This document shows positions 9,566 through 26,542 of a DNA stretch of 64,000 nucleotides, piece after piece (positions within the stretch are counted from its first letter, which is position 1; every line of letters begins with the position of its first letter). Made by a program: the position numbers and the translations under genes. The notes below the pieces were generated by a model. The model made no database searches. It saw only the letters and a program-made list of their open reading frames with translations, and was not told the origin of the DNA. The stretch is from Domibacillus indicus (GTDB lineage: Bacteria; Bacillota; Bacilli; Bacillales; Domibacillaceae): NCBI RefSeq assembly GCF_023715895.1, contig NZ_JAMBOO010000001.1, positions 62,001 to 126,000 on the forward strand. The letters are read 5' to 3'.

Positions 9566-9593
9566 AAAAAAAGCGCCCTACGGCGCTTTTTTT
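9566..9593 (-). terminator. Original tRNA-Arg terminator, U-tract side retained at attL
   Basis: GCGCC-CTAC-GGCGC extended by seven A/T pairs. On the minus strand the stem is followed by seven Ts (9566-9572). The attL core begins at 9570, so the full U-tract stayed with this copy while the copy at attR has only three. Confidence 0.8.
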
Positions 9594-9627
9594 ATTACGT
9601 CCCAGGAGGGATTCGAACCCCCGACCG
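9570..9627. repeat. attL, 58-bp core repeat
   Basis: Identical to 26485-26542. It contains the terminator hairpin and the last 31 bases of the tRNA-Arg gene (T-arm and acceptor 3' strand). The flanking bases differ on both sides (a/t before, c/a after), which fixes the repeat ends. Confidence 0.95.
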
Positions 9628-9676
9628 CTCCTAGCCCGCATATGTATACGCTATTCTAATCCGTCAGTTGAAACGT

Positions 9677-9696
9677 TCATTGATCGGTCATTCGAC
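9677..9696. repeat. Integrase arm-type repeat near attL
   Basis: TCATTGA, four bases, then TCATTCGAC. The same two words in the same order, with a five-base gap, occur near attR at 26445-26465. Paired sub-terminal repeats inside both ends fit arm-binding sites of a tyrosine integrase. Confidence 0.5.
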
Positions 9697-9768
9697 CGCT
9701 TGTGGCGATTTTACCATCGTGTGGCATTACGCGTCAAGCTGTTACGGTTTTCTACCTATTTATAAGCA

Positions 9769-9795
9769 CAAAAAAGAGCCGCCCAAAGGCAGCCC
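9769..9795 (-). terminator. Terminator after the tape measure gene
   Basis: On the minus strand GGGCTGCC and GGCGGCTC form an 8-bp stem with two G-U pairs, followed by six Ts. It closes the leftmost operon of the element 15 bases beyond the stop codon. Confidence 0.75.
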
Positions 9796-9809
9796 GTTGT
9801 TTATTACGA

Positions 9810-24460: not shown

Positions 24461-25252
24461 TTACCACACCGGCAGCGGTGCCGTTAATGGAACGGATTCT
24501 TGCTCGATAATATCATCGATATAACTGTCTATCATGCGGCTAATAACGCCGTTAAAAAAGCCCGGCAGGTTACGTATGCGGCGGCTTTTAGTCGCCATTA
24601 CAGCGGCGTGCAGGGCGCTCATGGCAATGTTTTCGAGGTCTTCCTTGTCATATGCGTCGCTCTTTAATAAGGCTGCCGTTTGCCCTCTGTAAACGCCGTA
24701 CATGCGGCTTGCAAGCGTCTCGTCTTGGCTATTTACGTTCTTAACGAAGGATTTAAAACGTTGATAAAACGTTAGCGGCTCCGCAGGATACGTATTGGTA
24801 TTAATATTAGTACTAGTCTTAGAAAAGATATTGTCTTCATGCTCCCCGTTTTCTGCGGGCGCTTGCCCCCGTTTTTCATTTTCCGCAGGCTCAGCGGGCA
24901 TGATTTGCACCAAATTCACGGTCTGCTGCATCGTCGAGCTGCGTTTAGTCGGCAGTATATTAACGATACCTAAAGACGCCAATTTCTTTAGCCATACGCC
25001 AATCGTGTCCGGCTTCTTTACGCCAAAGTCAGCGGCAATCTTGCGCTGGCTACGGAACGATAGGCCGGGATAATTACGGGAAATGTCGCGCAGATAGTCC
25101 AGTAAACGGATGAGCTTGCGCTTCCAGGCGGCAGATAGCTCGCTCGCTTCTATCGTGCGAACGTGTTTATTCACTGCGATTCTAAGTCCATCCATATCTT
25201 TGAACTTTGCAAAATCTGACTTTTGTATTTTATCGAACACAATATTAATCAT
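24461..25252 (-). CDS. Rep-like winged-helix protein (263 aa)
   Basis: Residues ~55-100 hold a helix-turn-helix (SFRSQRKIAADFGVKKPDTIGVWLKKLASLG is its extent, ending near a beta wing with NILPTKRSS). A charged linker leads to a C-terminal helical domain (LPGFFNGVISRMIDSYI). This layout occurs in many Bacillus plasmid, ICE and prophage proteins thought to start or help replication. Start at ATG 25252 with AAAGGAG upstream. It lies just inside the integrase gene. Confidence 0.55.
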   Translation of the reverse strand: MINIVFDKIQKSDFAKFKDMDGLRIAVNKHVRTIEASELSAAWKRKLIRLLDYLRDISRNYPGLSFRSQRKIAADFGVKKPDTIGVWLKKLASLGIVNILPTKRSSTMQQTVNLVQIMPAEPAENEKRGQAPAENGEHEDNIFSKTSTNINTNTYPAEPLTFYQRFKSFVKNVNSQDETLASRMYGVYRGQTAALLKSDAYDKEDLENIAMSALHAAVMATKSRRIRNLPGFFNGVISRMIDSYIDDIIEQESVPLTAPLPVW

Positions 25253-25411
25253 TTTAAACGGCTCCTTTAATAGGACACCGCAAGCAAATAAGCACATACG
25301 TTCTGTTAAATGAACAGACGGGCAGAATTTGCTTAAAGCCGAAATTTTTGATAAACTAACCTTACGACGGGGGTCATCATCTGTTTCGGCAGGCGGTGGC
25401 CTTTTTTTGTT

Positions 25412-26395
25412 TTATAGAAATCTCCGCAGGCTCTCTGCGACTTCTTCTTTGTCGAGGTGCAAGTATCGACTGGTAACGGCTATATCGCTGTGACCGAGCG
25501 CTCTTGAGATCATCGCTACGTTCGCTCCTTTATCGAGCAAATTCTTAGCGAAGCCTCTACGTAATGCGTGCGGATTAATATTTTTTAGTCCGTATTCACG
25601 GGCGTATTTAGCCAGCCGTTTCTGTATGTTATTGTGAGACGCTCCAGAGGCCGTAGGACCGCCGTTCTTAGTTATGAATACAAAATCATTACGACAGCGG
25701 TTATGGCGCCTTACAACGTCATTCTGACGCATTAAAACGTCTAGCAAGCGTGCTAGGTCATCGCCAATAGGTAAATGTAGTTGTTCGTGGTTCTTAACGA
25801 TACTTCCGTCAATTTTAAGGAGTTTGGCTTGAATATCGACGTGCTTGTTTTCGAGTTTGGCGATTGTGCCGACGCGTAGCCCCGTCTGATACATCATCAA
25901 AATGGCGGCAGCATCACGTAGTTCAACGAATCTCGTTAAATCAAGCAAGTGTAGTAGAATACGAATGTCTTTTTCGGCGGCACCTGTTTTAACGGGGCTA
26001 TCAACCTTTATATTGATCGCTCGCCAAAAACGTGTCTGAACCCAGCCTAAGTCGAAACAACGGCCTAGAAACGCCTTGAGGCACTTTAGACGCGTTAATT
26101 TCGTTTGATTGCTGACGTTCATGCTCGAAAGCCACTCGTAAATGTGGTCGGCTGTCAATTCGTCTAGGAACTGGACGCCGGTTATTTTTGCGAAGTGTGT
26201 AACGTGGAGTCTATAATCGCTGATCGTTCTTTCTCGGAAGCCAGTCGCTTCCATGTGGCGGGTAATCGTGAACAGCGCTTTTTCTATCGGCATACCTTCC
26301 GCAACAAGACGACGCTGTTGCTTCGGTTGCTGCTCGATAAAAAGATCGGATAAATCTGCGTTTACGGTTAATGACGCATTCTTTTTAGACAACAA
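25412..26395 (-). CDS. int: Tyrosine recombinase integrase (327 aa)
   Basis: XerC/D-type fold: N-terminal SAM-like core-binding domain (ISDYRLHVTHFAKITG region) and C-terminal catalytic domain with Arg174 (YQTGLRVGT), His276-x-x-Arg279 (HALRR), His302 (LGHSD) and nucleophile Tyr311 (SRYLHL). All catalytic residues are present. It catalyses integration and excision at the 58-bp att core. Start is TTG (two in tandem) with AGGAGG upstream. The gene is co-directional with, and 118 bp downstream of, the host tRNA-Arg gene. No obvious excisionase was identified. Confidence 0.95.
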   Translation of the reverse strand: MLSKKNASLTVNADLSDLFIEQQPKQQRRLVAEGMPIEKALFTITRHMEATGFRERTISDYRLHVTHFAKITGVQFLDELTADHIYEWLSSMNVSNQTKLTRLKCLKAFLGRCFDLGWVQTRFWRAINIKVDSPVKTGAAEKDIRILLHLLDLTRFVELRDAAAILMMYQTGLRVGTIAKLENKHVDIQAKLLKIDGSIVKNHEQLHLPIGDDLARLLDVLMRQNDVVRRHNRCRNDFVFITKNGGPTASGASHNNIQKRLAKYAREYGLKNINPHALRRGFAKNLLDKGANVAMISRALGHSDIAVTSRYLHLDKEEVAESLRRFL

Positions 26396-26444
26396 AAAAA
26401 CCTCCTAACGCGTGAATGTCGGTTACGATCGGCTGTTGACCGGA

Positions 26445-26465
26445 TCATTGACCGTTTCATTCGAC
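26445..26465. repeat. Integrase arm-type repeat near attR
   Basis: TCATTGA, five bases, TCATTCGAC, in the same order and orientation as at 9677-9696. It lies 19 bp inside the attR core. Confidence 0.5.
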
Positions 26466-26484
26466 GCATTAGAAGGCGTTTTGT

Positions 26485-26542
26485 AAAGCGCCCTACGGCG
26501 CTTTTTTTATTACGTCCCAGGAGGGATTCGAACCCCCGACCG
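26485..26542. repeat. attR, 58-bp core repeat
   Basis: Identical to 9570-9627. Includes the 3' end of the intact tRNA-Arg gene and its terminator hairpin, but only three bases of the U-tract. Confidence 0.95.

Follow-up and report, generated by a model that had tools for sequence, protein, structure and literature searches.

The window that we have analysed is a stretch of 64,000 nucleotides from Domibacillus indicus (contig NZ_JAMBOO010000001.1, positions 62,001 to 126,000 of the forward strand), and it carries an integrated element of 16,973 bp, flanked by perfect 58-bp direct repeats at a tRNA-Arg(TCT) gene. We have found that this element is, with a probability of roughly three in four, a chromosomally integrated phage satellite: an element that would be packaged with a helper phage and would contribute selected virion components of its own, in this case a tape measure protein (TMP).

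Starting from the integrase, the gene order is: a tyrosine integrase, a helix-turn-helix (HTH) protein of 278 amino acids (aa), a serine resolvase, an HTH regulator, FtsK and a replication-relaxation (RR) protein. Beyond these are small proteins and one of 314 aa, then an HNH endonuclease with an 83-aa protein behind it; six small proteins separate the latter from the TMP, which is at the far end. The features on which the argument is based are listed here, with counts that refer to the window element and its ten relatives, introduced below.

9570..9627, no strand: integrase-distal att repeat, 58 bp, identical to the other copy
26485..26542, no strand: att repeat overlapping the end of the tRNA-Arg gene, 58 bp
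26513..26586, minus strand: tRNA-Arg(TCT), the integration target (tRNA call)
25412..26395, minus strand: tyrosine integrase (PF00589, 2.8e-31; family in 11 of 11 elements)
24461..25297, minus strand: 278-aa HTH protein “Rep278”, adjoining the integrase (phrog_1835, “HTH DNA binding protein”; family in 10 of 11)
22816..23382, minus strand: serine resolvase/invertase (PF00239, 2.2e-46; family in 5 of 11)
20863..21987, minus strand: FtsK/SpoIIIE-like ATPase (1.6e-22; 3 of 11; 42% identical to that of phage phi18-2)
20193..20885, minus strand: RR protein (PF13814, 5.4e-9; 3 of 11; 44% identical to that of phi18-2)
16897..17169, minus strand: small HTH protein, XRE-like, preceding the late module (family in 11 of 11)
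14768..15328, minus strand: HNH endonuclease (family in 9 of 11; the homologue of the D. antri element is 91% identical)
14544..14795, minus strand: 83-aa protein after the HNH gene (p83; family in 4 of 11)
11892..12119, minus strand: 75-aa protein (p75; family in 4 of 11)
9810..11543, minus strand: TMP, 577 aa (phrog_28, 2.2e-15, and other tape-measure families; TMP in 9 of 11)

The integration is real and precise, since the two flanks of the element, which are 98.4% and 98.8% identical by BLAST to the empty site of another genome of the same species (G061), overlap there by exactly 58 bases, i.e. by a single copy of the repeat; no match to the TMP has been found in G061 at E 0.001. The clean integration that an earlier note on this DNA had read from the repeat, the integrase and the tRNA is thereby borne out, and the element, whose host belongs to the genus Domibacillus, has the integrase, the att repeats and the precise insertion that are expected of a phage satellite. 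The same note had described two recombinases, an FtsK-type protein with an RR partner and a lone tape measure, with no virion or secretion module, and the family scans agree: besides the TMP, general family scans have recognised no virion, secretion or lysis family among the scanned proteins of the element, while the TMP itself matches no Pfam family above its cut-off. The two Rep-like proteins of that description are present as HTH proteins of 278 aa and 314 aa, but their role as Rep is uncertain (phrog_1835 and phrog_9501, respectively); the 278-aa protein may be a replication initiator or an integration regulator, and the 314-aa protein is possibly a replication protein.

Searches with the TMP, the HNH endonuclease and the 278-aa protein have located ten further elements of the same plan in the order Bacillales, each bounded by direct repeats of 44-100 bp and 13,463 to 22,012 bp in length, with seven element lengths within 15,170-17,340 bp; the class of small integrative elements that had been supposed from the window alone is supported by them. 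The repeats and the integration sites of the ten relatives are as follows, where the label “iscA-like” is a reading of the protein sequence.

G006 (D. antri): repeat of 54 bp, extended by a further 36 bp beyond one mismatch; iscA-like gene end
G017: repeat of 66 bp; tRNA-Leu
G254 (Lederbergia galactosidilytica): repeat of 47 bp; tRNA-Arg CCG
G204: repeat of 63 bp; tRNA-Sec
G102: repeat of 46 bp; tRNA-Val
G353 (L. citri): repeat of 58 bp; tRNA-Leu, read from the repeat sequence
G296: repeat of 100 bp; iscA-like end as in G006, read from the repeat sequence
G038: repeat of 89 bp; iscA-like end as in G006, read from the repeat sequence
G350: repeat of 48 bp; tRNA-Ala
G148: repeat of 44 bp; tRNA-Gly

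The 278-aa protein has matches in 133 of 397 genomes, and 20 of those loci have been fetched, so that the eleven elements are a lower bound and give no frequency.

A TMP occurs in nine of the eleven elements (five form one BLAST cluster, three more are assigned by BLAST label together with PHROG, and that of G350 by PHROG, 6e-128), and its frame is open in all nine, encoding 536-1037 aa; two of these proteins also match phrog_971, named endolysin, which we have taken as part of the TMP. Other virion-type genes are scattered among the relatives: G017 encodes a major capsid protein (phrog_1328, 4.7e-90), which is the sole capsid gene in the eleven elements and is 52% identical to the capsid of Sporosarcina phage Lietuvens, together with a small terminase (TerS; 2.3e-18) and a protein with 32% identity, over 125 aa, to the scaffold open reading frame (ORF) of Lietuvens; G254 encodes a scaffold-like protein (PHROG, 5e-10) and a match to the end of a minor-head family (2.1e-54), of which G102 has a full-length protein (1.3e-221); and G204 encodes a small terminase (3e-21) and a protein that has 37% identity with a tail-region protein of DUF2577 type. 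Across the family, this amounts to one scaffold-like gene by PHROG and a second by BLAST, and to a minor head/tail protein in two elements. The BLAST cluster of small terminases extends over four of the eleven elements; one more small-terminase match (phrog_7344) lies among the short ORFs and PF13022 has five members in the pooled Pfam scan, so that a small terminase in more than four elements is possible. The family as a whole thus has the incomplete virion set, accompanied by packaging or virion-modifying genes, by which satellites are known, while in the window element the TMP alone has been recognised.

A large terminase, a portal, a tail tube and a sheath have been recognised in none of the eleven elements, either in individual and pooled family scans or by BLAST. 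A simple ORF picker finds 319 ORFs in these elements (164 of at least 110 aa, 122 of 65-109 aa and 33 shorter). The pooled scans covered 120 of the 164 long ORFs, displaying 25 of 69 PHROG and 25 of 37 Pfam families; the remaining long ORFs were already labelled as integrase, 278-aa protein, resolvase, TMP, FtsK or RR, or (three of them) cross a border. A repeat PHROG scan of 87 of those 120 ORFs (most of the 33 omitted had names already), which displayed all of its 15 families, gave no large terminase or portal; neither did BLAST comparison with the ORFs of five phage or phage-plasmid stretches, and none of the 36 ORFs of at least 300 aa in the eleven elements matches either protein. The short-ORF scan covered 105 of the 122 ORFs of intermediate length, with all 10 families displayed (the 17 dropped are mostly labelled HTH), and the 33 shortest lay outside the scans. 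No holin or separate endolysin is found among the displayed families of the eleven elements. According to the earlier note, related elements with complete phage structural genes would make this a decayed prophage; none has been recognised as far as these scans reach.

That the element is a decayed prophage, which has lost most of its virion genes and has kept the tape measure by chance, is therefore unlikely. FtsK, RR and the integrase do occur in complete phages, phi18-2 among them; the same early region is found in a G106 prophage that has a large terminase and is not counted as an element; and the genome of the window holds a truly decayed TMP remnant, interrupted by a stop codon. But eleven elements, located at various sites in eleven genomes, agree in their plan, keep their long frames open and have direct repeats, and decay is not expected to keep the TMP in nine of eleven elements and yet to lose the large terminase and the portal in all of them. 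Three late genes are under strong purifying selection, another point against decay: the ratio of nonsynonymous to synonymous substitution rates (dN/dS) between the window and the D. antri elements is 0.08 for the HNH gene, 0.11 for p83 and 0.13 for p75, the three genes to which the calculation applies; dS was saturated in two further comparisons, and the TMP is too diverged. Broken genes and intact relatives with full structural genes, by which a decayed prophage would be known, have not been found within the reach of the scans.

It is even less probable that the element is an integrative mobilisable element or an integrative plasmid, with FtsK and RR as its translocase and relaxase, although relatives of FtsK occur on 589 plasmid records (134 of them from Priestia), relatives of the 278-aa protein occur on five, and Rep-like HTH genes and a resolvase are present. 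The FtsK/RR pair is found in three of the eleven elements only, and it varies between near-identical phages: in an excerpt of PMC9476937, phages 268TH002 and 268TH007 are 96% identical, with a 2.5-kb insert that carries the pair as their main difference. Geobacillus phage GBSV1, SpaA1, phi18-2, 268TH007 and a Stenotrophomonas phage each have both genes in their annotation; in phi18-2, a complete phage, and in a phage-like plasmid of Paenibacillus, the pair follows the lysis genes. Where a mobilisable or conjugative element would have a relaxase with coupling or type IV secretion genes, we have found FtsK and PF13814 alone, both shared with phages, and family scans have recognised no secretion gene in the window element; moreover, the TMP, TerS and capsid genes would be left unexplained. 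The pair is an optional phage cassette and probably not a transfer engine, and the movement by an FtsK-type pump that the earlier note had put forward is not supported. Least probable is a role of the TMP in host defence, whereby a decoy tape measure, or one of the wrong length, would poison the tail assembly of invading phages while the element itself is not packaged: interference with tail assembly is known as a defence, according to an excerpt of PMC11364771, and the genes that adjoin the TMP have no assigned function, but the TerS, capsid and scaffold genes of the sister elements point to the building of particles, not to poisoning alone.

Returning to the phage satellite, the alternative of hitching on a helper, raised along with the pump, is supported insofar as most relatives have a tape measure and none has a recognised complete virion module. 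A phage of helper type exists in phi18-2 (64 kb), which matches by BLAST the integrases of all eleven elements (27-48% identity), the 278-aa protein of nine of the ten elements that have one (that of the window is the exception), and the FtsK (42-65%) and RR (44-65%) proteins of all three elements with the pair; its TMP is 62.6% identical over 1048 aa to that of G296. Relatives of the 278-aa protein adjoin the integrase in the complete phage phi18-2 and in Phage Wrath; the latter, which has virion genes, is the one match of this protein in the phage collection. The TMP of the window is 45% identical over ~270 aa to the TMPs (899-944 aa) of Peribacillus plasmids with phage genes, and its search of viral contigs gives 48 loci. 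Since known satellites have about one third of the size of their helpers, according to an excerpt of PMC10803314, elements of 13.5-22.0 kb fit helpers of 40-65 kb.

An AimR-like arbitrium receptor is encoded by the G296 element (L161:6153-7391; phrog_1728, 2.2e-62), with 30% identity to the annotated AimR of phi18-2; having both this receptor and a phi18-2-like TMP, the G296 element may listen to its helper.

The life cycle that these genes suggest would be the following. The satellite integrates at tRNA-Arg by means of its own integrase, as is evident from the occupied and empty sites, and would excise by the same means; it would replicate from its own HTH/Rep genes. When a helper grows in the same cell, the satellite would be packaged by the large terminase of the helper, possibly with the assistance of the HNH endonuclease, encoded at the head of the late module, in the cleavage of the packaging site. 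The particles would consist mostly of helper parts, together with components encoded by the satellite: its TMP would replace that of the helper and would thus set the length of a chimeric tail, as in the unrelated PLE satellites, while the adjacent small helical proteins might be chaperones or scaffold-like factors.

The chimeric tails of PLE, a group of Vibrio satellites, are the closest precedent. An excerpt of PMC12987554 presents PLE as the first family for which tail manipulation has been reported (2026, Nature); it states that the PLE TMP is present in the particles, that their tails are ~10 nm shorter than those of the phage, and that deletion of tmp lowers transduction by ~96-99.9% in three PLEs. 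The PLE of Vibrio cholerae, which builds chimeric tails with helper parts, resembles the window element in its small size, in being integrated, and in encoding a tape measure of its own but only part of a tail gene set. It differs in its host, Domibacillus belonging to a different phylum from Vibrio cholerae, and in keeping a tail chaperone (TAC), whereas the 97-aa neighbour of the window TMP has no informative fold match. General family scans, which included no direct search for PLE genes, have named nothing PLE-like in the window. The broader proposal, which we hold to be about as likely as not, is a widespread Bacillales family unrelated to PLE, with its own TMP as signature, that swaps in helper parts singly (tape measure, small terminase, scaffold plus capsid, or tail protein) and so sets the tail length of its own particles, with one AimR-like member that may sense the helper.

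Satellites of the PICI/SaPI type integrate at gene ends by means of their own integrase, have TerS in some members and measure ~15 kb, and in all of these respects the elements resemble them. PICIs have a regulator of Stl/AlpA type with a pri-rep module, and a TMP is not known to be part of them. The Stl/AlpA and pri-rep arrangement is not recognised in the window, where HTH regulators are present but neither AlpA nor a primase rises above its cut-off; a primase domain is found in three pooled proteins of the family. The cf-PICIs, whose gene set consists of capsid, portal, protease and terminase, are of similar size and are approached by G017 with its capsid gene and TerS; a legend in PMC12987554 mentions putative tmp genes in some of them. 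The family described here differs: neither a portal nor a large terminase has been recognised in it, one of eleven elements has a capsid gene, and nine of eleven have a tape measure; in the window, no member of such a capsid and packaging set has been found. The phi18-2 and 268TH phages share with the elements homologous integrase, FtsK and RR proteins, 278-aa homologues for nine elements and a TMP homologous to that of G296, but they are complete phages of 64-68 kb with virion and lysis genes.

Among titles and abstract openings of the literature searched, from which preprints and most subscription journals were absent, we have found no description of this Bacillales family. The satellite family is thus undescribed as far as searched, and overlap with an existing description is possible, as cf-PICIs are reported from Bacillaceae in an excerpt of PMC10803314. 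A Bacillales family that has the tape measure as its most constant virion gene would suggest that the takeover of tails by satellites has evolved more than once, and its hosts would offer new ground for asking why satellites need a ruler of their own: tail length, escape from tail-targeting defence, or exclusion of the helper.

Several observations weigh against the satellite reading. No circular form, induction or particle has been observed and no helper phage has been identified for the window element, in which, furthermore, family scans recognise neither a small terminase nor a capsid gene. The TMP is unrecognised in two of the eleven elements (G254 and G148), and the fold of the 97-aa neighbour of the window TMP matched no tail chaperone in PDB or BFVD. 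Because the 278-aa family and the FtsK/RR pair occur in complete phages and plasmids, some elements could be phage deletion derivatives; the G106 early region and the decayed relatives in the genome of the window count on this side as well. The phage collection contains no match to the 83-aa protein, and viral contigs contain none to the 217-aa and 314-aa proteins; given the results for the first two, nothing ties the window member to a packaged genome.

The remaining genes of the window element are listed below.

22363..22623, plus strand: HTH regulator (family scan)
19637..19903, plus strand: HTH regulator, HTH_26 (family scan)
17405..18370, minus strand: 321-aa protein, no function assigned
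15567..16511, minus strand: 314-aa protein (sole match phrog_9501, unknown function; weak winged-helix matches)
13669..14025, minus strand: 118-aa protein, no function assigned
13275..13679, minus strand: 134-aa protein, no function assigned (homologues in the G038 and G148 elements)
12682..13335, minus strand: 217-aa protein, modelled at low confidence as all-helical (with homologues in the G038 and G148 elements)
12245..12682, minus strand: 145-aa protein, no function assigned (homologue in G038)
11545..11838, minus strand: four-helix protein of 97 aa, immediately preceding the TMP gene (structure model)

A structure model of high confidence (pLDDT 92) was obtained for the 97-aa protein; its fold matches are uninformative, and the position of the protein would suit a tail-assembly chaperone, as a guess. 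For the 217-aa protein the model is of low quality (pTM 0.36), and we would guess from its position and modelled helical content that it is scaffold-like.

A free circular copy has been sought among plasmids and none was found. Mangrovibacillus plasmid pBac41 (L023; 16.6 kb) has the FtsK/RR pair, but it also encodes a holin, an amidase and RecT as well as having a Gp37-like phage gene, and it resembles a deletion derivative of a phage; Priestia plasmid p3 (16.9 kb) is annotated without an integrase of the element's kind, an HNH endonuclease or a tape measure. The FtsK query of genome contigs gave no confirmed locus. In G040, apparently Mangrovibacillus cuniculi, the host of pBac41, FtsK has an equal-scoring match on each of two contigs, so that a chromosomal and a free copy may coexist there. 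The FtsK family search of the host genome and of G061 finds, apart from the copy in the element, only two larger FtsK/SpoIIIE proteins in each genome.

Several loci from the 278-aa searches stand outside the count, as judged from ORF tables and BLAST only: G207, G096, G098 (four loci), G156 (two), G002 (the Domibacillus enclensis locus), G159, D. tundrae and G373; also outside are G009 and G063, on short contigs, and a Siminovitchia locus with an integrase, a 278-aa protein and an HNH endonuclease, but with no second repeat before the contig end. Of the eight genomes that are positive in one TMP search, four hold counted elements, G094 and G362 are outside the count, and G057 and G229 have prophages with sheath and portal-type genes, as read from their sequences. 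The TMP of the G038 element (L171:4737-6347, 536 aa) is 51% identical to a 630-aa TMP of the G229 prophage, in which sheath and tube genes have been read.

In the genome of the window (G000), the decayed TMP relative is located on contig C115 at ~361.4-363.8 kb (L087; 67-69% identity, with a stop codon); ~2 kb away is an ORF that we have read as an N-terminal piece of an integrase, to which the window integrase gave no match. Contig C127 (L182; 6.7 kb) has a homologue of the 278-aa protein and a resolvase, and C115 at 148-160 kb (L183) has fragments of the 278-aa protein and of an integrase; by sequence, both loci appear to be further relatives or remnants. A chloramphenicol acetyltransferase-like gene seemingly lies inside the G204 element (L110:11239-11883), judging by one match in the pooled Pfam scan, the ORF being assigned indirectly. 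Lastly, a protein of 473-477 aa is common to three elements (L157:5389-6810, L158:13412-14833 and L176:8459-9892) and probably accounts for the three pooled proteins in which an archaeo-eukaryotic primase domain is listed; one of the three, scanned singly, matches a DNA primase PHROG.

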